From Hymenobacter busanensis (GTDB lineage: Bacteria; Bacteroidota; Bacteroidia; Cytophagales; Hymenobacteraceae), in NCBI RefSeq assembly GCF_008727865.1, contig NZ_VTWU01000003.1, positions 62,001 through 126,000 of the forward strand: a stretch of DNA of 64,000 bases, read 5' to 3'. The notes under the pieces were generated by a model. That model saw nothing but the letters and a program-made list of their open reading frames with translations, ran no database searches and had not been told where the DNA came from. Positions 1,769-18,024 of the stretch are shown here, in pieces (position 1 is the stretch's first letter; the number at the start of each line of letters is the position of its first letter). Made by a program: the position numbers and the translations under genes.

Positions 1769-3169
1769 ATGTTTGGCTTAGAGCCTCAAGTGCTCCTGCT
1801 GCTGCTGGTGTGCCTGGTTGCTGCTTGCGCGTTCGAATTCGTCAACGGCTTCCACGACACCGCCAACGCGGTAGCAACCGTCATTTACACCAATACCCTG
1901 CGGCCGTGGGTAGCCGTGGTGTGGTCGGCGTTCTGGAACTTCATCGGCGTGTTTGGCGGCGGCATCACCGTGGCCATGGGCATCGTGTACCTGCTGCCCG
2001 TCGAGAGTCTGGTCGATCAGAACATCTACCACGGCATTGCCATGGTGGGCGCCCTCATTCTGGCGGCCATCATCTGGAACGTGGGCACGTGGTACTACGG
2101 CATTCCAGCTTCCTCGTCGCACGCGCTCATCGGCTCCATTCTGGGCGTGGGCATTGCCTACTCGCTGCTGCCCGACTCGGGCGGCGCGGCCGTGAACTGG
2201 AGCAAAGCCACCGAAACCGGCATTGCGCTGCTGGTAGGCCCGTTGTTCGGCTTCACGCTCACCATCATCCTGATGTTTGTGCTCAAGCGCTTCGTGCGCA
2301 ACAAGGCCATCTTCAAGGAGCCGCACAAGCGCAAGCCCCCACCCCTCTGGATTCGCCTGATTCTGATTGGCACCTGCACGGCCGTGAGCTACTTCCACGG
2401 CTCTAACGACGGCCAGAAAGGCGTGGGCCTGGTGATGCTGATCCTCATCGGCATCGTACCCTTCAAATTTGCCCTCGACGAGTCGAAAAACCCGCTGGAC
2501 ATGCGCGGTTCGCTGGCGCAGGTAGAGCTGGTGATGGGCCGCGTAAATGCCGCCGAGCTGGCTCCCGACGAGCAAAAAGCCCTGGCTGAAATCAAAACGC
2601 AGACCAACAGCCTCGACCAGATTTTTGCGGGCAAAACCTACGTTAAAGAACTGCCCGAGGCCGACCGTTTCCGCATCCGCAAGGCCATTCTGCTGGTTTA
2701 CAACCGGGCCAAGAAAATCATGGGCAGCGAACGGGTCAGCCTCAGCCCGCAAGACCGCTCGGCCTACGAAAATGCCATCAAAAACATGCGCTCCTTCACC
2801 GACTACGCTCCGTGGGAAGTGTTGCTGATGGTGTCGTTGTCGCTGGCCGTGGGTACCATGGTGGGCTGGCAGCGCATCGTCAAAACCATTGGCGAGCGAA
2901 TCGGCAAAGAACACCTGACATATGCCCAAGGGGCCTCGTCGGAACTGGTGGCAGCGGCGATGATTGGGGCTAGCACCCAACTCGGCCTGCCGTCGTCCAC
3001 CACGCACGTGCTGTCGTCGGCCATTGCGGGCTCCATGGTGGCCAACCGCGGCATTCGCAACCTAAACCCGCAGATGGTGCGCAACATTGCCCTGGCCTGG
3101 GTGCTTACGTTGCCCGTTACGATGGTGCTGGCGGGCGTGCTGTTTCTGCTGTTTCGCACGCTCATGTAG
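1769..3169 (+). CDS. pitA: Inorganic phosphate transporter, PiT family
   Basis: Cation-coupled low-affinity phosphate uptake across the inner membrane. The 466-residue protein has both PiT half-repeats: NGFHDTANAVA at residues 26-36 and HGSNDGQKGVG near 210, plus the C-terminal GLPSSTTHVLSSA segment near 405. About ten hydrophobic helices are visible. A charged stretch of about 100 residues (roughly 245-345) separates the halves, as in many Bacteroidota PiT proteins, and probably sits in the cytoplasm. It has its own promoter and a strong terminator, so it is monocistronic. No phosphate-specific regulator or PhoU-like gene is adjacent. Confidence 0.93.
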   Translation: MFGLEPQVLLLLLVCLVAACAFEFVNGFHDTANAVATVIYTNTLRPWVAVVWSAFWNFIGVFGGGITVAMGIVYLLPVESLVDQNIYHGIAMVGALILAAIIWNVGTWYYGIPASSSHALIGSILGVGIAYSLLPDSGGAAVNWSKATETGIALLVGPLFGFTLTIILMFVLKRFVRNKAIFKEPHKRKPPPLWIRLILIGTCTAVSYFHGSNDGQKGVGLVMLILIGIVPFKFALDESKNPLDMRGSLAQVELVMGRVNAAELAPDEQKALAEIKTQTNSLDQIFAGKTYVKELPEADRFRIRKAILLVYNRAKKIMGSERVSLSPQDRSAYENAIKNMRSFTDYAPWEVLLMVSLSLAVGTMVGWQRIVKTIGERIGKEHLTYAQGASSELVAAAMIGASTQLGLPSSTTHVLSSAIAGSMVANRGIRNLNPQMVRNIALAWVLTLPVTMVLAGVLFLLFRTLM

Positions 3170-3319: not shown

Positions 3320-3362
3320 TTATCCACTTATCAACAGGCAAAAACCGCTGTTTTGTGGAAAA
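3320..3362. other. Small DnaA-box-like cluster
   Basis: TTATCCACT (3320-3328) and TTATCAACA (3328-3336) each differ by one base from TTWTNCACA. TGTGGAAAA (3354-3362) is an exact match on the reverse strand. The cluster lies in a gene-free gap between the PiT terminator and a convergent gene, 1.2 kb from the main candidate origin. Confidence 0.4.
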
Positions 3363-3370
3363 CCTTGGCT

Positions 3371-3850
3371 TTAAGCCGGCCATTGCACTTCGAGGTCGTC
3401 GTTTATGAACACTCCGAAATTGACGAACTGCAGTTGGTCTTCGTCAAAGTAAAGGTCAATCATTTCCTTCTCGTACGAGAGGCGCACCTCGCCGGTATCC
3501 ACCTTCTCAATCTCGGGCTGCTGGTGGCCGTGGCGCTTCATCAAGGCCTGGATTTCCTCCAGCGACTTGCCCTGAATCGGCTCGCCGTAGAGGCTCATGC
3601 CGGGGTGGTCGGTTTCGATGCAGGAGAGACGGTAGTCGTCTTCGCGGTCGAAGTAAAGCGAGTAGCCTTCTTCGAGGTAGTTCCAGGCTTGGTGCTCAAA
3701 CTCGTCGTCGTCTTCCGACTCCTCGATTTCCTCCGGCTCACCCATCAGGGCGCGCACTTCGTCCATCTTGGCGCCGAACTTGAGCGGGCCCATGCCCTGG
3801 CCCAATACGATTTCGTTTTCTTCGGTGCTGCGGGGTTGGGGCGTGTTCAT
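3371..3850 (-). CDS. Acidic conserved hypothetical protein
   Basis: A 159-residue, strongly acidic soluble protein with no signal peptide or membrane segment. Near residue 18 it has GQGMGPLKFGAKMDEVRAL followed by MGEP, the shape of a G-x-x-M-x-E-V-x-x-L-x-G-x-P turn-helix motif. A related helix (GKSLEEIQALM) recurs near residue 93. The run EESEDDDEFEH near 43 is a low-complexity acidic linker. I do not recognise a named family. A TACCTTTA element (3882-3889, minus strand) is a one-mismatch -7 candidate upstream. It may be a small immunity-like or adaptor protein, but nothing nearby supports a specific role. Confidence 0.75.
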   Translation of the reverse strand: MNTPQPRSTEENEIVLGQGMGPLKFGAKMDEVRALMGEPEEIEESEDDDEFEHQAWNYLEEGYSLYFDREDDYRLSCIETDHPGMSLYGEPIQGKSLEEIQALMKRHGHQQPEIEKVDTGEVRLSYEKEMIDLYFDEDQLQFVNFGVFINDDLEVQWPA

Positions 3851-3984: not shown

Positions 3985-4476
3985 TCATTTGCCGTAGCGC
4001 TCCACGAAGCGGGTCTTCTGCGCAACATAGTCGGGGTGGTGCTGGGCCTCGTCCCATTTGGCTTTAAAAATGGCTGCCGCTTCGGCTTTCGCGGGGTCTT
4101 CGGGGCTGCGCGGCAGCTCGGGCCGGCCATGGGCGCCGCTTTGGCCCTTCTTGTCTTCGGGCACGGGGCCGGCGTACTTCTTGCCGCCGCGGTGGTTTGC
4201 GTAGCGCCTAGCCCGCGTAAAGCCCATTTGCAGGAACTTCCGGGCCATGTCGGCCCCCACGAAATCTTCGGCCTTCAGGTAATCCAGAAACTGCTGGTAA
4301 ATGGTTTCCGACGATTGCCGGGCCAGCTCGGGCGTGCGGAAGCGCCAATGCGGCAGGATTTCGCCCTTGTAGGGCTGCACCAGCAACACGCCCTGCTCGC
4401 CTTTGCCCACGCGGTACAGCTCGGGGTGCTGGCGAAAGTCAACGTGGCGAAAGTCGAGGTTGTAGTCAAACGGCAT
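3985..4476 (-). CDS. DUF4385 family protein
   Basis: A 163-residue cytoplasmic protein of unknown function. It carries the features I know for DUF4385: an N-terminal LDFRHVDFRQHPELYRVGKG block, GEILPHWRFRTP, DMARKFLQMGFTRARRYANH, and PVPEDKKGQSGAHGRPEL. I chose the ATG at 4476 because the homologous block begins there. The frame stays open upstream to 4581, but that part is arginine- and glycine-rich and not family-like. It lies between the candidate origin and the acidic hypothetical gene and is separated from the origin region by a hairpin at 4561-4607. Confidence 0.88.
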   Translation of the reverse strand: MPFDYNLDFRHVDFRQHPELYRVGKGEQGVLLVQPYKGEILPHWRFRTPELARQSSETIYQQFLDYLKAEDFVGADMARKFLQMGFTRARRYANHRGGKKYAGPVPEDKKGQSGAHGRPELPRSPEDPAKAEAAAIFKAKWDEAQHHPDYVAQKTRFVERYGK

Positions 4477-4560
4477 AGGCAAGGGCAACGAGCAGCCCGC
4501 ATATACGAAACCCCGACCCGAAAAGTGACTTTTTCCACGGGCTGGGGTGTGGAAAGGTGG

Positions 4561-4607
4561 AAAAAAGCCGCCGCGGTGCACTGGCAGCGCGCCGCCGCGG
4601 CTTTTTT
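4561..4607. terminator. Bidirectional terminator-like hairpin left of the candidate origin
   Basis: A6-GCCGC (4561-4571) pairs with GCGGC-T6 (4597-4607) around a 25-base loop. No gene ends here, so it may shield the gene-free segment to its right from transcription. Confidence 0.55.
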
Positions 4608-4718
4608 CCGGGCGCAGCTCTTTTCTGGGTTGCGCGCTTTCCGACCACCCTTCTTCTGCTCGGCTCCGGGCGTTTCCCAGACCGGGAATTTTTCATCCGG
4701 CCGAGTTTTCCACCTGCC

Positions 4719-4760
4719 TAATAACTTTTCATTAAATAAAATTTTAAGAAATTCTTTTTG
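4719..4760. other. A/T-rich tract, candidate DNA-unwinding element
   Basis: 37 of 42 bases are A or T in a sequence that is otherwise strongly GC-rich. It directly precedes the densest part of the DnaA-box-like cluster, which begins 26 bases to the right. Confidence 0.55.
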
Positions 4761-4785
4761 TCCCCCGTCGTAGAGTGCGTTGATA

Positions 4786-5113
4786 AGTGGATAAAAAACG
4801 GGGTTATACACACGGCTTGATAACATGTGTACAAGAACGGGTTTATGCACCGACTATCAACAGGGTATGTGTATTACATAGGTATGAATACCAGTGAATT
4901 AATAGATTTTTTCACAATCCACAGGCTTGTGCACAGCCACTGAAATACACATACCTCAGCAGCGTGGATAAGGGATGAATCGGGGGAAAGTTGTCCACGC
5001 TTGTGCACAGCCTTCAGGCACTGATAGCGGCTGCAAACGGCCAAAAAAACTTGTCCCCTATTTCTCCACGGCCGTCCACACGTTATCCGTCGATTATCCA
5101 CAGGTTATCCGCA
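4786..5113. other. oriC: Candidate chromosomal replication origin (DnaA-box cluster)
   Basis: Two exact DnaA boxes are present: TTATACACA at 4804-4812 and TTATCCACA at 5094-5102. Eight one-mismatch boxes relative to TTWTNCACA begin at 4786, 4826, 4843, 4868, 4927, 4963, 5001 and 5105, on both strands; two of them are the partly palindromic TTGTGCACA. Further one-mismatch copies lie at 4531, 4548 and 4706. The segment has no convincing gene from 4477 to 5266, borders an A/T-rich tract (4719-4760) and is bracketed by hairpins at 4561-4607 and 5221-5251. Against it: dnaA is not in the window, and genes from 5.3 to 18 kb all run toward it. The identification is inference from motif clustering. 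Confidence 0.65.
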
Positions 5114-5220
5114 GGTTAGGGGAAAAGCCCGAAACGATGGAAAAACAGCGCTGTTGATAACGCGTAACCAATCTGATTATCAGGCGGAAGTTACTTCCTG
5201 CACCGGCTTTGGAACGCAAA

Positions 5221-5251
5221 AAAGCCCCGCCACTTCGCGTGACGGGGCTTT
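5221..5251 (-). terminator. Terminator of the Ig-like lipoprotein gene
   Basis: A 13-bp stem with one mismatch (5221-5233 with 5239-5251). The minus strand runs into T6 after it, just past the stop at 5267. Confidence 0.8.
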
Positions 5252-5266
5252 AGCTAAATGTGTGGC

Positions 5267-6883
5267 TTAAAAAGCGAGTACCAGGTTCTCTATGTCCCAG
5301 TTGGCGCGCACCTGCTGCTGCTGCGGAAACAGGTATACGGGCTCGGGCGGTACCCGCAGCTTTGGGTCGCCCCCGCGCCACCGGCCGTCGTTGTCGGCGT
5401 CGATGAGGGCGCGCAGGCGGTAGTTACCGGGGGCCAGATTATCGAAGCGGAACGTGCGCGGGCTTTGCAGCGTGGTTATCACCTGGTAATTCTGATCGAG
5501 CAACTGCAGCTCAAACCGCTTGGCCGTGGTTTGCACCGTGCCCGAAAGGCTGCCGGTGGTCGATTCTTCGGTGACGAGCAGCCGCACCGGGCGCAGGCCC
5601 AGCGGCTGCCCGCTAACGGGAACGATGGCCGTGCTATCGGGCACAAACGTGACGACGCGGCGGGCCTTGGTATTCACGTTGATGGTCAACAGCCGCCGAT
5701 CGGGGCTCAGGAACGCATCGGCAGGGCTGCGCAGCGGGCGGCGAGAGGTCGAGTCCTCGACCAGCGTACCCACCGGCTTGCTAGGCGCCAGTTGCACCGG
5801 TTCGTTGAATTGCAGGCGCAGCTGCCCGTTGCGGTAAATGCTGCGCGGGGTTTCGACGACGGTATACTGCGGCCCGCGGCGTTTGGGCTCTTGCCCGTCG
5901 AACTTCACGTTCACGGTGTCGCGGCCCACGTTGCCCACACTATCGGTAGCGGCCAGTACGTAGCGGCCCGCTCCCAGCAGCGGCGTGCGTTGCAGCACGG
6001 CGGTGCGGCCGTTTTCGGCCAGGAACGTAGCGGCCACGAGGGCCGGATTGACCGGCTGGCCCAGCGCAGTGAGAGTAAGCTGCCGCAGGCCTTCGTTGTA
6101 GCTGATGCGAAATTGCTGGGTGTTGCCCTGCTGGCTCAGAATAAGCGGGCGGCGCGAGTCGGGGCGTACCGAGCGCAGCACCAGCGAATCGAGGCCGCGG
6201 CGGATTAGCACGGGCTCGGGCAGGTAGGCAATGCGCTCGGGCTCGTCGAAGCGGCTGTTCTGGTTTTTGTCGACCAGCGCGTAGAGGCGGTAGCGGCCCT
6301 CGCGCAGGTTGCGCAGCCGAAACGTGCCGGCTTTGTCGGTGCGGCCGGCGTAGAACGGGCGGCTGCGCTTCACGTCGGCGGTATCGTCGGCGGGGTACAG
6401 CGCAACCAGAGCTTCCGCTTCGGGCTGCCCGTTGAGTAGCTGCGTGACGGAACCCGCTACCGAGCCTGAGTCCAGGGCCGCGCCGGTGCTGAAGGCCACC
6501 ACCACTTCGGCGGCTTTGTTGCTTTCGGTGATGTCGGAAATCGATTCGCCGAAATTGAACACATAGGTGGTATTCTCGGCAAACGGCTTCTCGAAGCGCA
6601 GCTCAATGGCGTTGCGCTCCTCGCGCACCTTGTAGCGGTTGTCGTCGGCCAAGGAAGGCGTCACGAGCAGATTTTTGCTTAGCTCTTTCACCTGCACTTG
6701 CTCCGAAAACTCCAGCCGCAGGGTTTGGCCAGCCACGCGGGTAGCGCCGTTTTTGGGCTCGGTACTCACCAGCGTGGGCGCCACGGTGTCGCGGGCGCCG
6801 CCTTCGGGCGAGCTGATGGCCGCGCATCCGGCCAACCACAACCCGGCCGGCAGGCACCATAGCAGACTAACGCGAACGGACAT
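5267..6883 (-). CDS. Ig-like (Big_5-type) domain lipoprotein
   Basis: A 538-residue predicted lipoprotein. From the ATG at 6883 the signal peptide ends in LWLAGC with the lipid-bearing Cys at about 20. The N-terminal domain (about 31-135) reads as a bacterial Ig-like fold: APTLVSTEPKNGA, LRLEFSEQV, YVFNFGESI. The middle has a carboxypeptidase-regulatory-like module around DKAGTFRLRNLREGRYRLYAL, and a similar LAPGNYRLRALIDADNDGRW segment lies near the C terminus. These suggest an outer-membrane or periplasmic structural protein rather than an enzyme. Its start overlaps the end of the upstream small membrane gene by 17 bases, so the two are probably translationally coupled. The frame is open further upstream, but the lipobox decides the start. 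Confidence 0.85.
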   Translation of the reverse strand: MSVRVSLLWCLPAGLWLAGCAAISSPEGGARDTVAPTLVSTEPKNGATRVAGQTLRLEFSEQVQVKELSKNLLVTPSLADDNRYKVREERNAIELRFEKPFAENTTYVFNFGESISDITESNKAAEVVVAFSTGAALDSGSVAGSVTQLLNGQPEAEALVALYPADDTADVKRSRPFYAGRTDKAGTFRLRNLREGRYRLYALVDKNQNSRFDEPERIAYLPEPVLIRRGLDSLVLRSVRPDSRRPLILSQQGNTQQFRISYNEGLRQLTLTALGQPVNPALVAATFLAENGRTAVLQRTPLLGAGRYVLAATDSVGNVGRDTVNVKFDGQEPKRRGPQYTVVETPRSIYRNGQLRLQFNEPVQLAPSKPVGTLVEDSTSRRPLRSPADAFLSPDRRLLTINVNTKARRVVTFVPDSTAIVPVSGQPLGLRPVRLLVTEESTTGSLSGTVQTTAKRFELQLLDQNYQVITTLQSPRTFRFDNLAPGNYRLRALIDADNDGRWRGGDPKLRVPPEPVYLFPQQQQVRANWDIENLVLAF

Positions 6884-7151
6884 TGTAGAGCAGTAAAGTG
6901 GAAAGCGTGATGAGGGCGCAGGCGCCCACAATAATCCAGCGGGTGCGCGGACGCAGAGGCGTTTCCGGGGCGTCGGGCACAAGGCTGGCCGCCGCGGCCT
7001 GCACCGAATCGGGCCGCACCACGCCGGGCGCTACCGCCACCGAATCGGGCCGCGCCGTTGGGGTTTGCGCCATTGCCGGCGCGCCGCGGCCCAGCACCAA
7101 CGCGGCGCTCAGGCACACGGCCGACCAGGCTAAAGCGTAACGAAACGGCAT
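6867..7151 (-). CDS. Small secreted/membrane-anchored hypothetical protein
   Basis: A 94-residue protein with an N-terminal signal peptide (hydrophobic core about 8-20, likely cleavage after APAMA), a proline- and alanine-rich middle, and a C-terminal membrane helix (about 72-89, WIIVGACALITLSTLLLY) followed by a short basic tail. I recognise no family. It overlaps the lipoprotein gene by 17 bases and is therefore probably its operon partner. It could be a membrane tether or small assembly factor, but the sequence does not tell. Confidence 0.7.
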   Translation of the reverse strand: MPFRYALAWSAVCLSAALVLGRGAPAMAQTPTARPDSVAVAPGVVRPDSVQAAAASLVPDAPETPLRPRTRWIIVGACALITLSTLLLYNVRSR

Positions 7152-7196
7152 AGGCGCAACATAACAAACGCAAAAGTAGCAGTTGCGGAGGCGCTC

Positions 7197-8111
7197 CTAC
7201 CCTTTCGCAGAGGCCGCAGCGGTTTTGCCCGCTACGTAAATCAGGCTGGAATATTGCCCGCCGTGCTGCGCCGCCTGTTGGTTGGACTTGTAGCCGGCTT
7301 TGAACGCGGCCAGCAAACCGGCGTCGCGCTCGGCGCGGTACCGCTCGCTGAGCATGCTCACGTAGTAGGCATCGAGCACCAGCGGCAGGGTGTGGCGCAC
7401 CTGCATGCGGTGCTTGCGCAGCAGCTTGCCGATGGTTTGGGGCGTGAAGTGGTAGAGGTGGCGCGGCACGTCGTAGGCGGCCCATTGCTCGCGGTAATAC
7501 TGCGCGTCGGGGCTTTCGGCGTTGGGCACGGCAATGATGAGCACGCCGTCGGGCTTGAGGAGCTGGGTGAGCTGCGCCAGCGTTTCGTTGAGCGTGTGCA
7601 CGTGCTCCAGTACGTGCCAGAGCGTAATGGCATCGAACGAGCCGGGGGCGAACTGGCCGAGGTCGTGGGCACCGATGGGTTGACCGGTGCGCTGCCGGGC
7701 CTGCTCGCGGGCCACGTCGCTGGGCTCGATGCCCGATACCTGCCAGCCGACTTTCTGGCAGGCTTCCAAAAAGTAGCCAGTGCCGCAGCCGTAGTCGAGC
7801 AGGTAGCCGCGACGGGGCGCCATTTTGTTTACCAGCTTCACCTTGTGGCGCATGGTGTAGAGCCGTGCCAGTTGGTAGAGCTTGTTGGTGAGGCCCTTGC
7901 TGGTGTCGGAGTGCGACACGTAGTCCTCACTTTCGTAGTAGCGGCCAATGCTCTGGGCGTCGGGGCGCGGGTTGGTGAGCTGAAAGCCGCAGCTCGTGCA
8001 CTGCACGATGGCGAAGCTCTCGTGGCTGACGGAATAGTCTTCGACCACCATTTTGGGGCGGAAGTCGCTTTTCCCGCACACCGGGCACTGTTCAACGCGT
8101 TCGTAGGACAC
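7197..8111 (-). CDS. Class I SAM-dependent methyltransferase with N-terminal zinc ribbon
   Basis: A 304-residue protein if it starts at the GTG at 8111. The N terminus has a CPVC...CTSC zinc ribbon (about 8-41), followed by the SAM-binding motif LLDYGCGTGYF (about 104-114), GIEPSD, and LWHVLEHV with the LLKPDGVLIIAVPN strand. This matches Methyltransf_23-type enzymes often found with cell-surface glycan or secondary-product genes; the substrate cannot be read. The open frame extends to an ATG at 8252, but that stretch is not conserved-looking and contains the -7 element TATTTTTG (8177-8184), so I start downstream at GTG (TTG at 8117 is an alternative). Confidence 0.88.
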   Translation of the reverse strand: MSYERVEQCPVCGKSDFRPKMVVEDYSVSHESFAIVQCTSCGFQLTNPRPDAQSIGRYYESEDYVSHSDTSKGLTNKLYQLARLYTMRHKVKLVNKMAPRRGYLLDYGCGTGYFLEACQKVGWQVSGIEPSDVAREQARQRTGQPIGAHDLGQFAPGSFDAITLWHVLEHVHTLNETLAQLTQLLKPDGVLIIAVPNAESPDAQYYREQWAAYDVPRHLYHFTPQTIGKLLRKHRMQVRHTLPLVLDAYYVSMLSERYRAERDAGLLAAFKAGYKSNQQAAQHGGQYSSLIYVAGKTAAASAKG

Positions 8112-8176
8112 CAACAAGCAATTCAGACGGCAAACAAAAAACAGCCGAACGCGGGCGCCGGCTGCGACTACAGCTA

Positions 8177-8184
8177 CAAAAATA
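8177..8184 (-). promoter_or_regulatory. -7 element (TATTTTTG) for the methyltransferase gene
   Basis: Matches TAnnTTTG and lies about 60 bases before the proposed GTG start. It argues against the more distal ATG. No -33 TTG is at ideal spacing. Confidence 0.4.
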
Positions 8185-8284
8185 GCGGTTTGGGCAATGG
8201 GATGGGTGAGAGTTTGGGCAAGTGGTGACCGGTAACGCGCGAGGGGAGCCACCCGGCACCGGGAGTAATGCTCGCAAGCAGGCT

Positions 8285-8578
8285 CACAATGGCCACTGAC
8301 AAGCGCACAATGGGCTTTGCCGACCTCACAACGGCTGGTGATGAGTGCACAATGGCTGCTGTCGAGCTCACAATACTCGCTGCCGACCGCACAACGCCTG
8401 CTGTCAGCCTCACAATGCTCGGTGACAACCTCACAACGGCCTGAGTCAAGTGAGCAACAGCTTCTGCCGACTGCACAATGGACTTTGCCTACTTCACAAC
8501 GGCTGGTGTTGACCTCACAATGGCTGGTGTCAAGCTTGCAATGGTCAGTGTCAACCGTACAATTGCTGCTGGCAGGTC
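8285..8578. repeat. Degenerate 21-bp tandem repeat array, 14 copies
   Basis: Fourteen contiguous units of exactly 21 bases. Each begins CACAAY or a close variant and continues with a GGCTGSTGTCRA-like core. Units start at 8285, 8306, 8327, 8348, 8369, 8390, 8411, 8432, 8453, 8474, 8495, 8516, 8537 and 8558. Copies differ at several positions but indels are absent, so reading frames stay open on both strands with a 7-residue period (for example AIVRSTP on the minus strand). No start or ribosome site makes a gene convincing. The array fills the gap between the methyltransferase gene and an inner-membrane protein gene. Confidence 0.9.
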
Positions 8579-8601
8579 TGCAGAGGCGTCAGCCACTCCG
8601 C

Positions 8602-8988
8602 TTACATATTGTTCACGCCCGGTGGGTCGCCGACCGAAGCTGCCCCGCCGAATACGAGCATGGCTACCACGAAGCTTCCACCAACGAGCACCAGCAACGT
8701 CCAGACGGTGAACAGCAGCCACACCACGGCCCGACCGAAAAGCCGGTGCCAGGCGGCCCGCACCGTACCAACAAAGCCCCAGAATGCCAGCGGTGCTTGC
8801 AAAGCCCAGGCGGCCATAGCAAGGTTGTCAGCCCAGATAAAATCGGGCGGCCACGGATGGCCCCACTTCAAGGCGAAGACGCAGAGCAGGGCCAGCCCAA
8901 AGAGGCCGCTTAAACCAACAACCAGCCCAGCAAACCAACCCAGGTGGTCGGCTGGCCGGGCTGGCGGCAACGCGGCGGTAGGCTCCAT
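8602..8988 (-). CDS. Small inner-membrane protein, unknown function
   Basis: A 128-residue protein with an N-terminal Pro/Ala-rich stretch and three predicted membrane helices (about 17-42, 58-78, 88-115). I recognise no family. It starts 9 bases after the mnmG stop and on the same strand, so it is probably the last gene of the mnmG transcript. The 21-bp repeat array begins directly past its 3' end. No charged catalytic motif is visible in the loops. Confidence 0.75.
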   Translation of the reverse strand: MEPTAALPPARPADHLGWFAGLVVGLSGLFGLALLCVFALKWGHPWPPDFIWADNLAMAAWALQAPLAFWGFVGTVRAAWHRLFGRAVVWLLFTVWTLLVLVGGSFVVAMLVFGGAASVGDPPGVNNM

Positions 8989-8997
8989 GCCTATCCC

Positions 8998-10863
8998 CTA
9001 TTTACCCAGATACACCATCAGCACCGAAATATCGGCGGGCGAGATGCCGCTAATGCGCGAGGCTTGCCCAATGGTTTCGGGCTGCACCTTCAGCAGCTTT
9101 TCGCGGGCTTCGTGCGAGAGGGCGGGCATGGCTTTGTAGTCGAGCCGGCCCACGATGCGCAGGTCTTCCAGCTGGCCCATACGTTCGGCCTGCTGGTGCT
9201 CCTTCTCAATGTAGGTTTCGTACTTGACGTGGATGCTGGCCTGCTCCAGCACCTCGGCGCCGTACTGGCCCAGGTGCTCGTGCAGCTCCGGCAGGGCGCG
9301 CTGCAGGTCGGGCAAATCCAGCTGCGGGCGGCGCAGCAGGTTCACCACGCGAGTTTTCTCGTGGATGGGGGCCGAACCCAGCTCTTCCAGCAGACCGTTG
9401 ATTTCGCCCGGCTCCACCGGCTTTTTGCTGAGGTAGTCGAGTACGTCGGCGGTTTGCTGGCGCTTCTGCTCCACGCGGGCCATGCGCTCATCCGAGGCCA
9501 GCCCGAGCTTGTGGGCCAGCGGGGTGAGGCGCAGGTCGGCGTTGTCCTGGCGCAGCAGGATGCGGTGCTCGGCGCGGCTGGTGAACATGCGGTAAGGCTC
9601 GTCGGTGCCCTTGTTCACCAGGTCGTCGATGAGCACGCCAATGTAGGCCTCGGAGCGGCGCAGAATAAACGGCTCCAGCTCCCGCACCCGCTGGTGGGCG
9701 TTGATGCCGGCCATCAGGCCCTGGCAGGCGGCTTCCTCGTAGCCCGTCGTGCCGTTGATCTGGCCGGCGAAGTAGAGGTTGCGCACCGGCTTGGTTTCCA
9801 GCGTGAGGTGCAGCTGTGTCGGCGGAAAGAAGTCGTACTCGATGGCGTAGCCGGGGCGGAACATCTTCGCGTTTTCAAAGCCCGCAATCTGGCGCAGGGC
9901 CTCGTACTGCACGTCTTCGGGCAGGCTGCTGCTAAAGCCGTTCACGTACACTTCCACCGTGCTCCAGCCCTCGGGCTCCACGAAAATCTGGTGGCGGTCC
10001 TTGTCGGCGAAGCGGTTGATTTTGTCCTCCACCGAGGGGCAGTAGCGCGGCCCCAGACCCTTGATGCGGCCCTGGAACATCGGCGACTTTTCGAAGCCGG
10101 TGCGCAGGATGTCGTGCACCTTCTCGTTGGTGTAGGTGATGTAGCAGGGGCGCTGCTTGCTCAGAGTGGGCGTGTCGAGGTAGGAGAACTTGCTCGGGTT
10201 TTCGTCGCCGGCCTGCTCTTCCATCTTCGAGTAGTCGAGGGTGCGGCCGTCCACCCGGGGCGGGGTGCCCGTCTTCATGCGGCCCGTCTCGAAGCCCAGC
10301 TCCCGCAACTGCTCGGTGATGCCGGTGCTCTTGCGCTCCGCGGCGCGGCCACCGCCGAAGTTTTTCTCGCCGATGTGGATGAGCCCGTTCAGGAAGGTGC
10401 CGTTGGTGAGCACCACCGTTTTGCTCCGGAACTCGATGCCCAGCTGGGTGCGCACGCCCACGCAGGTGCCGTCTTCCACCAGCAGGCCGGTCACGGCCTC
10501 CTGCCAGAAGTCCACGTTGCGGATGCCTTCCAGGGTCAGGCGCCACTCTTCGGCAAAGCGCATCCGGTCGCTCTGCGCCCGCGGGCTCCACATGGCGGGG
10601 CCCTTCGAGCGGTTGAGCATCCGGAACTGAATCATCGTCTTGTCGGTGATGATGCCCGACTGCCCGCCCAGCGCGTCCACCTCCCGCACGATCTGCCCCT
10701 TGGCCACCCCGCCCATAGCCGGGTTGCACGACATCTGCGCGATGGTGTTCATGTTCATGGTCACGAGCAGCACCGAGGAGCCAAGATTGGCGGCCGCGGC
10801 GGCAGCTTCGCAGCCGGCGTGGCCGGCGCCTACCACAATTACATCGTATTCCTGGGTCAGCAT
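8998..10863 (-). CDS. mnmG: tRNA uridine-5-carboxymethylaminomethyl(34) synthesis enzyme MnmG
   Basis: FAD-dependent subunit of the MnmE-MnmG complex that installs the cmnm5 group on the wobble uridine of some tRNAs, using methylenetetrahydrofolate, in the cytoplasm. The 621-residue length is normal. It has the N-terminal dinucleotide-binding motif VVGAGHAGCEAA (10-21), MSCNPAMGG near 44, the conserved GRYCP-like segment GPRYCPSVEDK near 275, a GQINGTTGYEEAA block near 370, and the C-terminal helical MnmE-binding region. It is followed at 9 bases by a small membrane gene. MnmE is not in the window. Confidence 0.98.
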   Translation of the reverse strand: MLTQEYDVIVVGAGHAGCEAAAAAANLGSSVLLVTMNMNTIAQMSCNPAMGGVAKGQIVREVDALGGQSGIITDKTMIQFRMLNRSKGPAMWSPRAQSDRMRFAEEWRLTLEGIRNVDFWQEAVTGLLVEDGTCVGVRTQLGIEFRSKTVVLTNGTFLNGLIHIGEKNFGGGRAAERKSTGITEQLRELGFETGRMKTGTPPRVDGRTLDYSKMEEQAGDENPSKFSYLDTPTLSKQRPCYITYTNEKVHDILRTGFEKSPMFQGRIKGLGPRYCPSVEDKINRFADKDRHQIFVEPEGWSTVEVYVNGFSSSLPEDVQYEALRQIAGFENAKMFRPGYAIEYDFFPPTQLHLTLETKPVRNLYFAGQINGTTGYEEAACQGLMAGINAHQRVRELEPFILRRSEAYIGVLIDDLVNKGTDEPYRMFTSRAEHRILLRQDNADLRLTPLAHKLGLASDERMARVEQKRQQTADVLDYLSKKPVEPGEINGLLEELGSAPIHEKTRVVNLLRRPQLDLPDLQRALPELHEHLGQYGAEVLEQASIHVKYETYIEKEHQQAERMGQLEDLRIVGRLDYKAMPALSHEAREKLLKVQPETIGQASRISGISPADISVLMVYLGK

Positions 10864-10932
10864 AGCTGGGAAGGGTTGTTGCTTCGGAGGGTATGAACAG
10901 GTGCGGCCGGGGTTTTGTGCCGAAATGCAAAA

Positions 10933-10960
10933 AACCGTTTCTGCGTTGGCAGAACCGGTT
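10933..10960 (-). terminator. Terminator of the aminoacyl-transferase gene
   Basis: A 12-bp stem with one mismatch and a 4-base loop (10933-10944 with 10949-10960), followed by T6 on the minus strand. It separates the transferase gene from mnmG. Confidence 0.75.
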
Positions 10961-11046
10961 TAGAAATCAACTCGCAACAAGCCGCGTAACCCGCTCAGAA
11001 CGTGCGCAAAGATACGTACTGCTTGGCTTTGTGCGCGGGTCACCGG

Positions 11047-11778
11047 TTATTCCGGGTCCTCGGCATCCATTTCCAGCGCCAGCCAGTCGCGCATCAGCTC
11101 GGCCGATTGCGCGGCAACTACGTCCCAGGAAAACGGCAGCCAGCGGCCGGCAATGCAGTCAAATACCTCCGTAGCAGCCGGGCAGGCGAATAGCTTGTAG
11201 TCGAACTTGGGATAGGCGTGCACCACGTAGCCGGGGTAGTAATACGTTTTTTCCTGCTGCCGGGCGTAGTTGATTTTGAGCAGCATGAGGTACTTGCCCA
11301 GGCTGTGCTTGCGGTAGGCCGGGTCGTAGAAGTTCATGATGCCCGCCAAGGTGTGGGTACCGCTATCGAAAATCCCTACCGCAATCAGCTGCTGGCCGTC
11401 GTAGACTTCGAGAGCCTCGGTGGGAAAGGCGTTATGCGGCGCGCCGGCCAGCAAAAAAGCCTCCACGGTTTCGGGCGCGTCGAAGTCGATGGACTGGTAA
11501 TAGCGGCTGTACAGGGCCTCGTACTGCTCGGTGAGCTGAAACGAGCGACGCCGCACGGTAAACTGCTCGTTGAGGCGCAACAGGCGGCGCTGCGTGGGCC
11601 CAAAGGTGACGCTGGCCAGGTTCAGGCGCAGCCAGTGCACGGTGTATATCTCGTCGTTGATGGGCAGAAACCGGCAGGTAAACAGGTTCTGGTGCATCCG
11701 GTAATACCCCTGGCTCAGGTAAAAATCGAGCACGTTGCCGGGAATGATAACGGACGAAGAAGTGGGCGTGGCAGACAT
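11047..11778 (-). CDS. Arginyl/leucyl-tRNA--protein transferase family (Ate1/Bpt-like)
   Basis: Would transfer an amino acid from charged tRNA to the N terminus of proteins, marking them for N-degron proteolysis. In the 243-residue product (ATG at 11778; another at 11793) I see the N-terminal block RLNLASVTFGPTQRRLLRLN, which parallels the basic SQRR-x-L-x-R-N motif of Ate1/Bpt, and a C-terminal GNAT-like domain with LGKYLML and YYYPGYVVHAYPKFDYK, close to the YY-L-G-Y-I-H-x-x-P-K-M-x-Y-K motif. The N-terminal Cys pair of classical Ate1 is not evident. The amino acid donated cannot be decided from sequence. Confidence 0.78.
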   Translation of the reverse strand: MSATPTSSSVIIPGNVLDFYLSQGYYRMHQNLFTCRFLPINDEIYTVHWLRLNLASVTFGPTQRRLLRLNEQFTVRRRSFQLTEQYEALYSRYYQSIDFDAPETVEAFLLAGAPHNAFPTEALEVYDGQQLIAVGIFDSGTHTLAGIMNFYDPAYRKHSLGKYLMLLKINYARQQEKTYYYPGYVVHAYPKFDYKLFACPAATEVFDCIAGRWLPFSWDVVAAQSAELMRDWLALEMDAEDPE

Positions 11779-11802
11779 AACTGATGAAAGCACCGATAAA
11801 GC

Positions 11803-11828
11803 AAACGCCCGCAGTTGGGCGGGCGTTT
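11803..11828 (-). terminator. Hairpin downstream of ybeY
   Basis: A perfect 10-bp stem (11803-11812 with 11819-11828) and 6-base loop, 25 bases past the ybeY stop. The T-run is interrupted (TTTGCTTTA on the minus strand), so termination may be partial. Confidence 0.6.
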
Positions 11829-11852
11829 ACAAATAACAAAAGCTAGCAGGCT

Positions 11853-12353
11853 TTAAAAAGTGCGCAACGAGAGGCAATCGTCCTCTTTCTTGCGCATGGC
11901 CGTCTGGCTCAGCAGGTCTTTGTCCTTGTAGCCCAGCAGGTGCAGCACGCCGTGAATCATCACGCGGTGCAGCTCGTCGCGGAACGAGACGTGGTGCGTC
12001 TCGGCGTTTTCCCTGATGCGGTCGATGGAAATGAACACGTCGCCCTCGATGATGTCGGCGTCGTCGGCGTTGTCGAAGGTGATGACGTCGGTGTAGGTGT
12101 CGTGGTCGAGGTACTCTACGTTGACCTTGTGGAGGAACTCGTCGGAGCAGAAGATGTAGGTCAGCTGCACGATTTTGTGCTCGTGCACCTGGGCCACGCG
12201 CTCAATCCACTCCGTCAGTGCGGTGGCGTCGGACAGCTCAAAATCCACGTCCTCGACCACAAACTCGATGCCCGGTGCGTCGTGCATGGGGTCGTAAGCA
12301 TCGTCCTCGTCGAAGGAGCGAGGCGGCAGCTGGGCGTCGTCGGCAGAAGTCAA
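11853..12353 (-). CDS. ybeY: rRNA maturation endoribonuclease YbeY
   Basis: Metal-dependent endoribonuclease involved in 16S rRNA 3'-end maturation and ribosome quality control. The 166-residue protein has an N-terminal acidic extension of about 25 residues, then the UPF0054 fold with YTDVITFDN near 87, GDVFISIDRI near 104, and the metal motif HGVLHLLGYKDK near the C terminus. The first two His ligands are present, but the third, usually in DH, is replaced by KD. I recall this substitution from other Bacteroidota YbeY. It is in a same-strand series: DUF4175 protein, GHKL ATPase (21-base gap), ybeY. Confidence 0.95.
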   Translation of the reverse strand: MTSADDAQLPPRSFDEDDAYDPMHDAPGIEFVVEDVDFELSDATALTEWIERVAQVHEHKIVQLTYIFCSDEFLHKVNVEYLDHDTYTDVITFDNADDADIIEGDVFISIDRIRENAETHHVSFRDELHRVMIHGVLHLLGYKDKDLLSQTAMRKKEDDCLSLRTF

Positions 12354-12374
12354 GGGGCGGGCTGAGCTAAAGGA

Positions 12375-12824
12375 TTAGGAGGCGACGGCGTGGCCGTTGA
12401 CGCCGCTGCCGTTGGAGCTAGCGGGCGGCAGGAAGAACGTCAGCTCCACCTTGCGGCCGTCGTTGGTAAACTCCACTTCGTCGGCCAGGTGGCGGATGAG
12501 GAAGATGCCGCGGCCACCGGGGTTTTCCAGGTTTTCAGGCGCCGTGGGGTCGAGAAGGTTCGTGAAGTCGAACCCAGGACCCTGGTCTTCTACCTCGAAA
12601 GTGACGCGGTTGTCGTCCACGGTCAGCGCGAGCTGCACGTTTTTGTCCTTGTCGAACTTGTTGCCGTGGCGGATGGCGTTGTTCACGGCCTCCGTGACGG
12701 CCACCATGATGTTGCCGTAGATGTCGTCTTCGATATGGAAAGTTTCCTTCGAATTATCGATGAAACTCTCGACCACGCGGATGTTTTCGACGAGGGAAGG
12801 AATCTGGATTCTGACCTGCTTCAT
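12375..12824 (-). CDS. GHKL-fold ATP-binding protein, RsbW-like
   Basis: A 149-residue stand-alone histidine-kinase-type ATPase domain. It has the N box VTEAVNNAIRHGN (about 43-55), G1 box DQGPGFD (about 79-85) and G2 box GGRGIFLIR (about 103-111). Such single-domain proteins act as anti-sigma or anti-anti-sigma kinases in partner-switching systems, phosphorylating a STAS protein on serine. No STAS or sigma factor gene is adjacent, so the partner is unknown. The gene sits between a DUF4175 gene and ybeY with 39- and 21-base gaps, which suggests co-transcription. Confidence 0.88.
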   Translation of the reverse strand: MKQVRIQIPSLVENIRVVESFIDNSKETFHIEDDIYGNIMVAVTEAVNNAIRHGNKFDKDKNVQLALTVDDNRVTFEVEDQGPGFDFTNLLDPTAPENLENPGGRGIFLIRHLADEVEFTNDGRKVELTFFLPPASSNGSGVNGHAVAS

Positions 12825-12863
12825 GGAGTGGAAAAAGGCGGCGGGGCGTAAAAGTAGGCAGCG

Positions 12864-15800
12864 TTATTTCATTTTCTGAAAATACTCGCTCACCTCCCGC
12901 TGATAATACGGAGTGAGGGCCGGGGGAACCGTGCGAAGAAGCTCCGTTTGGCGCTGCCGCTCCTGCTTGTATTTCTCGAACGCGGGCGGAAACCCCGGCG
13001 GCACCGTGCGGGCCGTTTCGGCTTCGCGCTTGTTGTCGAGGTCCCGCTCCCGGGCCGATTTTTCGGCTTCGAGAAGGCGGCTCAGGATCTGACGCTGGCG
13101 CATAACGGTTTGCTCCGTCAAGCGTTTGTTTACGAGGTCCGTTTCCGTTTGTTCCATCATTTTTTTCAGGTCGCCGAGGCCGCCCATGCCTTGGTCGCCC
13201 TTGCCGTCCTTCTTCCCGTTCTTGCCTTCTTTGCCGGCCTGTTGCATTTTTTCCAGCTCCTGCAGGGCCTGGCGCAGCATCTGCTGCTGCGCCGCCATTT
13301 TGGCTAGCTCCTCCGAGAGTTGCCGGCCCGATTTGCCGCTTTGCTGAAGCTGCTGAATCTGCTGGTTGAGCTGCTCCTGCAGCTTGCCCATCTGGCCGGG
13401 GCTGGAGCCGGGGTTCTGACCTTTCTTCTTCTTGCCGGGCTTGCCGCTGCCGCTGCTCTTGGCCTGCTGACCCTGGCGCATTTGCTCCTGCATCTGCTTG
13501 AGGGCATCGTTGAGCATCAGGGCCAGGTTGTTCATGCTCGTCATGGCCAGTTGCTGGTTGCCGGTGGCGCGGCCCACGTTGCGCTGGCGCAGCTGCTCCA
13601 TGGCCTGGTCCATCTGGCCGTTCATCTCGCCCACCTCGCGCGTCACGAAGCTCTGAAGTTGAAAAACCTTCTTGGCCAGGGCATAGAGCGAGTCCTGAAT
13701 AACTACGGCGTCGTCGCGGAGCTTGCGCTGGGTCTGGCTCAGCTGCACAAAGCGCGGGTCCGACTGATCGACCTGCCGAAAATCCTTCATCAGGCTTTCC
13801 TGGTCGAAGCTCAGCTTGAGCAGGTTTTCGAGGATGTCGCGCAGGTCGTCGATGTTCTGCTGCTGCTGGTCCGATTCGCCCTCCTCCATCTGCTGGCGCA
13901 TCTTCTGCGCCATTTCCTTCATGTTTTTGGCCGCGTCCTTCTGGTTCTGGCTGGCCTTTTGATTCTGGTTTTTGGAGAGCTGCTCTTGGCTGTCCTGCAT
14001 CTGCTGGTCTACCTGCTGCTGCTCCTGCTGCATGGGGTCGAGGTTGTTCTGGTGGTCGAGGTCCTGGTCGAGCTTCTGGGCTTCCTTCAGTTCCTTTTTC
14101 ACTTCCTCGAAAGCCTTTTGGGCTTCCTGCTGCTGCTGTTTGAGCTGTTCGTTTTCCTGCTTGCGCTGGTCGTTGGGCTTGTCGGCGGCTTTTTCGGTTT
14201 TCTCGGCCAGCTTCTGCTCCTGCTCAGCCAGCTTTTCAAGCTGCTCGGTGGCGCTTTCCATCTTCTGCTCCAGCTGCAATTGCTTGAACATGTCGAGGGC
14301 GCGCTCCAACTCTTTCTGCAGCGTCTGCTCCTTGTTTTCGAGCTGGTCGAGGAGCTTCTGCATGTCCATGTTGGGCGCCTTCTGCTGCTCCAGCATCTTT
14401 TGCAGCTCCTCGTAGAGCTTCTTGGTTTTCTCGTCGAGCAAGGAGTCCATCAGCTTTTGCAGCTCCTGGGCCTTTTCGGCCAACTGCTCGCTGCGTGGGT
14501 CGAGCTGGTTTTGCTTCTGCTGAAGCTGTTCAAACATCTGCTTCATGTCCTGCAGCTGGGCGTCCATCTGCAGCTTCTGATCAAGCAAATCCTTCAGCTC
14601 TTTGCGGTCCGAAAAGCTCAGCTCGCGCTTGGTCTTGAGCTTGTCCTGGGCCTTGGCCAGCTCCCGCTGCATCTTCTCCGATTGCTTTTGGGCGCTGCTC
14701 AGCTGGCTCTGCATCGAGTTGGAGGTGGCATTGAGCTGCTCGCGCAGCTCGGCGCGGCTCGGCAGGCGGTACATCAGAGGCCGGGTGCGGGTACTCTTGG
14801 CGCCGTGCAGGCCATCGTTGTCCCATACCTCCACGGCGTATTCCAGCTGCTGGCCGGGCTGCAGGTGCAGCGGCGCTAAATCCCACTGGTGCGTGTAGGT
14901 CTGGTTCGGGCCACTGCCCGTGAGGCGCAGCGGGGCCGTGCGCCACGTGCCGGGCTGCCGGGCAGTGCCGGTGCGGTAGTGCAGCGCCAGGCGCGTCAGG
15001 CCGTAGTCGTCTTGCAGCGTGCCGGCCAGGGCCAGGTAGCGCTGCGTGGCAGTGTCGGCAAAGGCTTCCACGGTGATGCTCGGCGCTTGGTCGGGCACTA
15101 CGGTCAGCTGGTATTCGATTGGGTCGCGGTTCGGGCCGGTGGCGGCGTTGCGCAGCTGCACCCGGTAGGTCTGGCTGCGCAGGGCCGGGCGCGTGAGCGT
15201 GAATTGCTCGTCGTCGGCCGCGGTGGCAGCTACGGTTTCGGCGGGGTCGAGGAACTGCAGCTGCACCGCGTCGGTGGCGGCAGTATTGAACTGCCACGTG
15301 AGGCGGGTGCCCTCGGGCACGGTCAGGTTGCCGTCGTTGGGCAGGGTTTCGGTGGCGCGGCGCAAGTAGGCCGGGTATTCGGCGCGCACGGCAAAGTCGC
15401 GCAGGTTGGGGCGCTCCAGCACGCGCAGCTCGTAGTCGTCGGAGGTGAAGCCGGCGGCACCCAGCTGAAACGCCACGTTGCGCTGGGGCTGCTGAAACGT
15501 GTAGGCAAAGCGGCCGGGCGCCACCTTGGTCAGGCGCCGCTCGTGGCCGTCGATGAGCAAGTTCACGGCATCGGGCATAGCGTCGCCTTCGATGCGCACT
15601 TCCAGCTTGAAATCTTCGTTTTTGAAGGTTTTCAGTTGCTTGTTTTCCACCACAAACCGGAACGGCATGGGGCGCTTGTAGGCACGGCTGTAGTGAAAAA
15701 TGCGCTCGGTGCCCTGCACAAACAGCGCGGGCCACACCAGCAGCAGCACGGCGGCCACGCCGGCCGGCACGGCGGCGTACTTCCACAGCGGCCGGGTTTC

Positions 15801-16286
15801 TTCCTTAATGCGGATGCGCTCGGCAAACTCCAGGCCCGAGAGCTGGCCGGCGCGCTGCTCCAGGCTGGCCGCAATCAGGGCGTTGTCGCGGGCCTGGCCT
15901 TGCAGCTGCAGCGCGTTTAGGAGCTTGTCCTGCACTTCTGGAAACAGCTGGCCCACGCGCTGGGCGGCTTGCTCGTCGGAGAGCAGGCGGCGCAGGTTGG
16001 TGAGGGCCGCCAGCGGCTGCCAGATCCAGTGCACAAACGCCCACACCGTGAGGCCCAGAAAGCCAAACAGCAGCCCGCCGCGCACCCAGGTAGGCAGGTA
16101 CAGGAAGTACTCCAGCAGATTGAAAACGACAAACAGCGTCAGCAGCAGGCCGCCGGCCACGAGGGCCCCGCGCACCAGCAGACTGAGGTAGAACTTGCGC
16201 TTGAAGCCTTCCAGGTGCTGACGCACGGCCTGCCAGCCCGCGGGCGCGGCAGCGGAGGTAGTAGGGAGAACGGGCGTTGCCGGCAT
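12864..16286 (-). CDS. DUF4175 family giant membrane protein with coiled-coil domain
   Basis: A 1140-residue envelope protein. Two hydrophobic helices lie near residues 37-60 and 66-92 and a third near 168-190; these are followed by several beta-rich Ig-like segments (about 200-500) that probably face the periplasm. From about 505 to 1060 the protein is dominated by Gln, Lys and Glu and looks like a very long coiled coil (KQSEKMQRELAKAQDKLK, QQQEAQKAFEEVKKELKEA), with a Gly/Lys linker (GSGKPGKKKKG) near 945. This is the DUF4175 layout I know from Bacteroidota, where it neighbours an ATPase-like gene and ybeY. Function is unknown; a structural or mechanosensing envelope role is inference. Confidence 0.9.
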   Translation of the reverse strand: MPATPVLPTTSAAAPAGWQAVRQHLEGFKRKFYLSLLVRGALVAGGLLLTLFVVFNLLEYFLYLPTWVRGGLLFGFLGLTVWAFVHWIWQPLAALTNLRRLLSDEQAAQRVGQLFPEVQDKLLNALQLQGQARDNALIAASLEQRAGQLSGLEFAERIRIKEETRPLWKYAAVPAGVAAVLLLVWPALFVQGTERIFHYSRAYKRPMPFRFVVENKQLKTFKNEDFKLEVRIEGDAMPDAVNLLIDGHERRLTKVAPGRFAYTFQQPQRNVAFQLGAAGFTSDDYELRVLERPNLRDFAVRAEYPAYLRRATETLPNDGNLTVPEGTRLTWQFNTAATDAVQLQFLDPAETVAATAADDEQFTLTRPALRSQTYRVQLRNAATGPNRDPIEYQLTVVPDQAPSITVEAFADTATQRYLALAGTLQDDYGLTRLALHYRTGTARQPGTWRTAPLRLTGSGPNQTYTHQWDLAPLHLQPGQQLEYAVEVWDNDGLHGAKSTRTRPLMYRLPSRAELREQLNATSNSMQSQLSSAQKQSEKMQRELAKAQDKLKTKRELSFSDRKELKDLLDQKLQMDAQLQDMKQMFEQLQQKQNQLDPRSEQLAEKAQELQKLMDSLLDEKTKKLYEELQKMLEQQKAPNMDMQKLLDQLENKEQTLQKELERALDMFKQLQLEQKMESATEQLEKLAEQEQKLAEKTEKAADKPNDQRKQENEQLKQQQQEAQKAFEEVKKELKEAQKLDQDLDHQNNLDPMQQEQQQVDQQMQDSQEQLSKNQNQKASQNQKDAAKNMKEMAQKMRQQMEEGESDQQQQNIDDLRDILENLLKLSFDQESLMKDFRQVDQSDPRFVQLSQTQRKLRDDAVVIQDSLYALAKKVFQLQSFVTREVGEMNGQMDQAMEQLRQRNVGRATGNQQLAMTSMNNLALMLNDALKQMQEQMRQGQQAKSSGSGKPGKKKKGQNPGSSPGQMGKLQEQLNQQIQQLQQSGKSGRQLSEELAKMAAQQQMLRQALQELEKMQQAGKEGKNGKKDGKGDQGMGGLGDLKKMMEQTETDLVNKRLTEQTVMRQRQILSRLLEAEKSARERDLDNKREAETARTVPPGFPPAFEKYKQERQRQTELLRTVPPALTPYYQREVSEYFQKMK

Positions 16287-17643: not shown

Positions 17644-18024
17644 TTAAGCAGTGTGCTCGGCGTGGGCCGGCGCCGGCTGGGCCGATTCTTCCTTCAGGGC
17701 TTCCCAGTACTCCACGGCCCGGCGGAAGTGCGGAATGACGATGCTGCCGCCGATGAGGTTGGCAATGGCAAACACCTCGTATACCTCCGCGTCGGTGAGG
17801 CCTTCCTCGTAGCACTTGCCCAGGTGGTACTTGATGCAGTCGTCGCAGCGCAGCACCATGGAGCAGGCCAGGCCCACAATTTCCTTGGTTTTCACGTCCA
17901 GCGCGCCGGCCTGGTAGGTGTTCGTGTCGAGGTTGAAGAAGCGCTTGATGACTTTGTTATCCGCCGCCATGATCTTTTCGTTCATGCGCGAGCGGTAATC
18001 GTTGAATTCGGTGACGAGGCTCAT
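17644..18024 (-). CDS. Carboxymuconolactone decarboxylase family protein (AhpD-like)
   Basis: A 126-residue all-helical protein. It carries the CMD/AhpD signature with the redox pair CDDCIKYH (Cys at about 59 and 62, His at 66) after EIVGLACSMVLR, and the following GLTDAEVYEVFAIANLIGGS helix pair. Family members act in alkyl-hydroperoxide defence or as gamma-carboxymuconolactone decarboxylases; the CxxC-x2-H arrangement favours a redox role. It overlaps no gene and leads into a hypothetical gene 3 bases later. It is divergent from comF. Confidence 0.9.
   Translation of the reverse strand: MSLVTEFNDYRSRMNEKIMAADNKVIKRFFNLDTNTYQAGALDVKTKEIVGLACSMVLRCDDCIKYHLGKCYEEGLTDAEVYEVFAIANLIGGSIVIPHFRRAVEYWEALKEESAQPAPAHAEHTA

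Follow-up and report, generated by a model that had tools for sequence, protein, structure and literature searches.

The segment that separates a DUF4385 gene from the gene of an Ig-like domain protein in this window (the whole stretch of 64,000 nucleotides that was analysed) is very probably the chromosomal replication origin (oriC), judging from its sequence and its counterparts in relatives, and it is distant from dnaA. A chromosomal origin away from dnaA had already been proposed in the preliminary description of this DNA. The proposal is supported by the GC skew of related chromosomes, by the position of parS, by conservation, and by a single strong match of a core profile in the genome, which is not independent of the conservation evidence. 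As an oriC the segment is ordinary in kind, and it is perhaps already present in origin databases. Ori-Finder 2022 is described as allowing indicator genes other than dnaA (PMC10225481), and an oriC plasmid has been used in Cytophaga hutchinsonii (PMC5288383). In a literature search of partial coverage, we recognised no description of a Hymenobacter oriC, of the two-sided core or of the satellite element discussed below.

Position of the segment on the chromosome

As the genome is a draft of 11 contigs, with the segment on a contig of 721 kb (C5), a skew fit was possible only on relatives. In the first 400 of the 721 kb, where the reach to the left of the segment is only 66 kb, there is no clear skew flip. 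GC skew was one of the checks named in the preliminary description, and we fitted it together with a gene-strand term (from an ORF heuristic) to 40 evenly spaced 20-kb stretches per chromosome in three relatives whose counterpart of the segment had been located, namely G005, G020, and the complete Hymenobacter sp. BT18. Each of the three chromosomes has a skew transition there, and the homologous spot falls inside the supported interval every time. The skew supports 3.18 to 3.70 Mb (or 2.74 to 2.94 Mb) in G005, where the homologous segment lies at 3.41 Mb; 1.80 to 2.04 and 2.18 to 2.28 Mb in G020, with the segment at 2.008 Mb; and 2.36 to 2.58 Mb in BT18, with the segment at 2.454 Mb. The log-likelihood loss at the homologous place is 0.80, 0.00, and 0.25 for G005, G020, and BT18, respectively. 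At dnaA, about 0.95 to 1.2 Mb away (contig C1 of G005 being taken as circular), it is 10.3, 14.0, and 16.2, and gene-strand-corrected GC skew thus rejects dnaA as the origin in all three chromosomes. The replichore skew itself is weak (amplitude about 0.015), and the supported interval spans 17%, 7%, and 5% of the chromosome in G005, G020, and BT18, respectively. The skew evidence is strong, yet its resolution is coarser than base level and a second interval is allowed in G005. Analyses of skew, growth rate (read depth), or strand bias in these bacteria should therefore use the locus of the segment and not dnaA.

As had been stated before, dnaA is absent from the window; it was found on another contig. 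In two near-complete relatives (G004:C1 and G005:C1) dnaA stands at the start of the main contig, with its domain match from base 559, as if the records had been rotated to dnaA; in G005 some 0.95 Mb would separate it from the inferred origin, provided that the contig is circular. Apart from dnaA, the genome of Litoribacter populi (L175) has eight extra matches to the Bac_DnaA domain. They fall into two groups of four that score identically, which is what we would presumably expect of repeated IstB-like ATPases of insertion elements.

The exact parS palindrome TGTTNCACGTGNAACA occurs once per genome in five of five genomes, always 20.8 to 24.0 kb from the segment. Sites with one mismatch also lie mostly near the segment, apart from one distant exception in G005. 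Only exact sites were counted, since the backward-read control gives a one-mismatch site in four of the five genomes. Among the four ORFs scanned next to the parS of this genome, there are no ParA or ParB genes.

The gene order around the segment is conserved as well. On the left lies the DUF4385 gene (3985 to 4476, minus strand; Pfam E value 4.6e-69 from residue 39 of a longer ORF), which likely begins at the in-frame ATG at 4474 to 4476, the listed ORF extending to a GTG at 4581. On the right, all on the minus strand, are the gene of the Ig-like (Big_5) domain protein (5267 to 6982), which is the usual right neighbour of the origin, a methyltransferase gene (7197 to 8252), both assigned by Pfam and synteny, and the landmark gene mnmG (gidA; 8998 to 10863; Pfam GIDA, 1.1e-164), the methyltransferase gene standing between mnmG and the origin. 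It had been objected that the genes from 5.3 to 18 kb point to the segment, and this is correct: the Pfam-matched genes at 5267 to 16286 and 17644 to 18024 are all on the minus strand, and two further ORFs on the minus strand, in the range from 16.3 to 17.7 kb, are without a Pfam match. We compared 80 named loci around mnmG: in 46 of them five or more boxes cluster from a point 2.1 to 3.5 kb past the 3' end of mnmG, and in 44 of these 46 the methyltransferase and Big_5 genes lie between mnmG and the cluster. The objection from gene direction weighs little because this same order is found in nearly all the cluster-bearing loci. The other 34 mnmG loci have no cluster of five boxes; 12 of them hold less than 4 kb past mnmG, 5 are Pontibacter or Rufibacter loci that retain the core, and the remainder belong mostly to other lineages (Saprospiraceae, Chitinophagales, Flavobacteriales), in which the origin may be located elsewhere. 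At the DNA level the segment is matched in 14 of 57 other genomes, among them all 7 others of its own genus; the matches in G040 and G052, counted among the 14, are merely 23 and 43 bases long.

Origins beside dnaA are common in general, and the true origin might lie there, in which case the segment would be a large DnaA-titration or regulatory cluster. Boxes accumulated near oriC are indeed described as able to titrate DnaA in E. coli (PMC12371093). We consider this explanation very unlikely, as the skew rejects dnaA in every chromosome fitted, the 3.5-kb dnaA locus of this genome holds just two scattered boxes, and the exact parS site is near the segment and not near dnaA. Plasmid origins also carry DnaA boxes and an A/T tract, so the segment could in principle belong to an integrated or extrachromosomal element and serve as its origin. 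Syntenic conservation already contradicts this, with an identical gene position in other genera, and so do the housekeeping neighbours (mnmG, a tRNA synthetase gene, and ybeY) on a 721-kb contig and the position within the skew interval of the relatives; we regard an element origin as practically negligible. The chromosomal origin is the reading that we retain.

Anatomy and conservation of the core

The best 42-base stretch, at 4718 to 4759 (no strand), is 88% A/T, the G+C content of the window being 62%. It is the tract that had been reported beside the box cluster, it is central in the conserved core, and from its composition it is the presumed DNA unwinding element (DUE). Adjoining it is the DnaA-box array (4786 to 5160, no strand), the predicted DnaA oligomerisation region, which has 6 to 12 boxes depending on the consensus. 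Compared with TTATNCACA, there are 2 exact sites (4804 and 5094) and 10 with one mismatch, so the earlier count of two exact and eight one-mismatch boxes was right to slightly low. With the strict consensus TTATCCACA, only 5094 is exact and five sites in the segment have one mismatch. When boxes are defined as TTRTNCACA or as TTATCCACA allowing a single mismatch, the segment has nine. Simulated segments with its own dinucleotides (n = 2,000) reached at most three, and that in 1 of the 2,000, and the densest 450-base cluster across 60 simulated 64-kb windows had two, indicating that the cluster is beyond chance. TTRTNCACA occurs 105 times genome-wide (both strands, self-complementary sites being counted once for clustering), with 5 occurrences in 299 bases of the segment and at most 2 per 500 bases elsewhere among the places listed.

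Next to the A/T tract, and aimed at it, are two tandem DnaA boxes on the minus strand (4778 to 4794), of which the box at 4786 to 4794 matches in 8 of 9 letters and that at 4778 to 4786 in 7 of 9, with an overlap of 1 base. The same pair recurs in the alignment of 36 cores. On this side the alignment also places a CYTAATAAC element at 4767 to 4775 (minus strand), which is degenerate in this genome and better kept in relatives. The far-side arm, on the plus strand at 4706 to 4725, faces the tract with a DnaA-like box TTTTCCACC (4706 to 4714) and CCTAATAAC (4717 to 4725). Both borders have terminator-like hairpins, as had been noticed before: an inverted repeat with A and T runs at 4559 to 4609 on the left (25-nucleotide arms, 88% complementary) and one at 5221 to 5251 on the right, behind the gene at 5267 to 6982 (13-nucleotide arms, 92% complementary), neither being assigned a strand. 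A further inverted repeat of 15 bases (4864 to 4878 and 4941 to 4955; 93%, arms 62 bases apart) is present inside the box array.

The consensus of the 36 aligned cores reads TTATCCAC(T/A)TATCCACAG-CCCTAATAAC, followed by the A/T-rich stretch and then by TTATTAG and TGTGGATAA facing back. From these cores, the window among them, we built a sequence-only profile (R1). In the whole genome it matches at 4700 to 4800 on the minus strand with an E value of 8.8e-14; the other matches are the opposite strand at the same place (E value 0.04) and, as the best other place, the satellite (E value 0.15). Matches to R1 also occur in 146 of 192 genomes from the order at an E value of at most 0.01 (drafts included), 98 of 296 genomes of the phylum at an E value of at most 0.001, and 52 of 52 chosen genomes of the family, sets that overlap or include this genome and some of which may contain sequences used to build the profile. 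The gene context of the matches was checked in the named loci only. The profile thus supplies a candidate origin for most genomes of the order. In the Pontibacter and Rufibacter loci (L126 and L128 to L131), the core is kept and canonical DnaA boxes are few, so that counting boxes alone misses these loci; their DnaA-box consensus may have drifted. In L131 an IS1-type transposase gene (14610 to 15311) stands between the Big_5 gene and the core.

Within the Hymenobacteraceae, boxes face inward on both sides of the A/T tract, with a strong TTATTAG motif on the far side and a relaxed one on the near side. Among 14 loci of this family (L118 to L131), the motif is present on the far side in 11, on the near side in 5, and on both sides in 3, with mostly a relaxed CTAAYRAC on the near side; this genome itself has a perfect copy on the far side and a degenerate one on the near side. 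Of 36 loci picked as best scoring, 30 also have an R1 match on the opposite strand, which is partial in two of them. Over 47 cores the inverted far-side arm has a mean score of 13.6, compared with 12.3 for a direct control and 11.3 for shuffles, with P values that overstate the difference, as the 47 cores are related sequences. The near-side motif is found in 24 of the 47 cores (1.0 expected). When 7 of 8 letters are required, 14 cores have the inverted motif on the far side (5.5 expected), no better than the 13 of the control in direct orientation, and a two-sided symmetry across the whole order is therefore not supported.

From this anatomy we infer DnaA binding, unwinding, helicase loading, and segregation at the segment. 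DnaA would occupy the array at 4786 to 5160 and the tandem boxes and would open the A/T tract, after which two helicases would load and replication would proceed in both directions. The edge motifs TTATTAG and CTAATAA may be grip points of DnaA on the opened strands. The terminator-like hairpins would exclude neighbouring transcription, and the parS site about 24 kb away would allow ParB to separate the new origins.

A three-box satellite beside the probable origin

The runner-up of R1, which a pattern search also finds, is an element on the plus strand at 3320 to 3362 that consists of a TTATCCACT/TTATCAACA tandem pair, a 17-base spacer, and an inverted box TGTGGAAAA. It is about 1.4 kb from the origin core and is flanked by a phosphate-transporter gene (1769 to 3169, plus strand) and an unnamed gene (3371 to 3850, minus strand) whose 3' ends converge on it, a location that makes a role as a promoter element unlikely. 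When a spacer of 13 to 24 bases was allowed, the pattern was found in 69 of 150 genomes of the family, one copy each, and the backward-read control gave none in the same 150. The carriers are all 8 genomes of its own genus (this one included), 60 of 68 of genus g5, and 1 of 74 elsewhere. We infer that g5 is Hymenobacter, because the core position in G590 matches that of BT18. The single carrier from another genus (G512) is doubtful as a true one, its match lying 552 kb from its core; this match (G512:C1:2557767-2557809) also has a 17-base spacer and may be a chance occurrence or a distant control site. No satellite boxes are present in the same gap in Rufibacter L126 or Adhaeribacter L127.

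In 67 of the 69 genomes (23 plus 44 of 46 measured), 1.18 to 1.66 kb separate the satellite from the core, with an outlier at 7.3 kb in G580, and in 46 genomes the strand of the satellite is always opposite to that of the core match. The spacer is 17 bases long in all 69 carriers and comprises 68 distinct sequences; average identity is 47% over the whole spacer and 32% over its middle six bases. Runs of A/T are located at positions 4 to 7 and 15 to 17, their centres 10.5 bases apart. A length that is constant while the sequence is nearly free indicates a fixed protein-DNA geometry. We presume from these sequences that the satellite is a second conserved DnaA site tied to the origin. Its geometry suggests that it probably tunes the active DnaA available to the origin, and a function in DnaA control, positive or negative, is likely. 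The satellite is a ready test, outside the Proteobacteria, for origin-linked control of DnaA by box geometry.

A more specific model can be put forward tentatively, as one that is rather unlikely to be right in full: that in Hymenobacter and its sister genus a one-per-genome element of rigid geometry at the side of oriC, made of a tandem pair of boxes, a 17-base spacer whose two A/T runs are separated by one helical turn, and one opposed box, would reset the nucleotide state of DnaA as DARS and datA do, having evolved separately from the gammaproteobacterial sites, and that box arms facing each other would open the origin from its two sides. A serious possibility is that the satellite has no part in the DnaA nucleotide state, acting only as a sink for DnaA or being the eroded second part of a bipartite origin. 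Three boxes beside oriC would double at once after initiation, which suits a sink; a sink, however, does not need a fixed spacing, and the spacing does not vary in any carrier. Bipartite origins occur in Bacillus subtilis and Helicobacter pylori (PMC10316083), yet by eye there is no conserved A/T tract beside the satellite in the sequences inspected, of which L120 has an A/T-rich stretch. Inheritance alone could also keep a length constant, and 68 of the 69 carriers come from just two genera, which are related. We think this improbable, because the middle of the spacer has diverged while its length and A/T runs stay, and because the distance between satellite and core has itself varied over the 67 genomes.

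Comparison with known systems

The oriC of E. coli lies between mnmG and mioC, distant from dnaA. Like it, the segment has a box array beside an A/T-rich element, with mnmG nearby and dnaA elsewhere. Unlike in E. coli, the origin here follows the 3' end of mnmG after two intervening genes, and the boxes of the Hymenobacteraceae face inward on both sides of the A/T tract. Against the E. coli oriC, DARS1, and DARS2 loci, R1 gave no match up to an E value of 1. The distance from TTATTAG to the TGTGGATAA box is 13 bases in E. coli oriC, compared with 2 to 3 bases or slightly more to the far-side box here. In the unwinding element, TTATT is described as a motif of the E. coli type (PMC10316083), and as TTATTAG precedes the E. 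coli oriC box, a role of TTATTAG in gripping the opened strand is plausible by analogy.

The tandem boxes that point at the unwinding element resemble those of the basal unwinding system of the B. subtilis type (BUS), which is made up of tandem boxes, a spacer, and DnaA-trios. In BUS the outer tandem box is reported to be the better match (PMC8287927), and the same holds for the outer box in the window. The published criterion for BUS further asks for three or more 3'-NAN-5' trios no more than 16 bases away from a box (PMC8287927). Runs of at least three trios are present in 10 of the 32 cores that could be read out of 35 (L181, L191, and L192 were left out), compared with 13.4 expected from shuffles; they are not enriched and give no support to a trio-type unwinding module. 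This genome has one run of three trios on the 4706 side and none on the tandem side.

The E. coli positions used for comparison with the satellite are those in K-12 that we take to be DARS1 and DARS2. The DARS cores are described as triplets of boxes in which the first points against the second and third (PMC5742627), and their facing pair as essential (PMC10380432). The satellite likewise has three boxes at fixed spacing, one of them opposed to a tandem pair, with a convergent facing pair. The start-to-start distances differ, being 14 and 12 in DARS1 and DARS2 and 26 and 8 in the satellite, and unlike DARS the satellite is located 1.2 to 1.7 kb from oriC. As it has the topology of DARS without the spacing of DARS, we have not filed it as one; conservation of the DARS2 core is reported to be confined to relatives of E. 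coli among the gammaproteobacteria (PMC4245941). The other E. coli site, datA, is a non-coding DnaA-box site on the origin side that is duplicated early, and its essential boxes are described as sharing one direction and needing IHF (PMC5742627). The boxes of the satellite are opposed; it is likewise a non-coding box site, and its position next to oriC is closer to that of datA.
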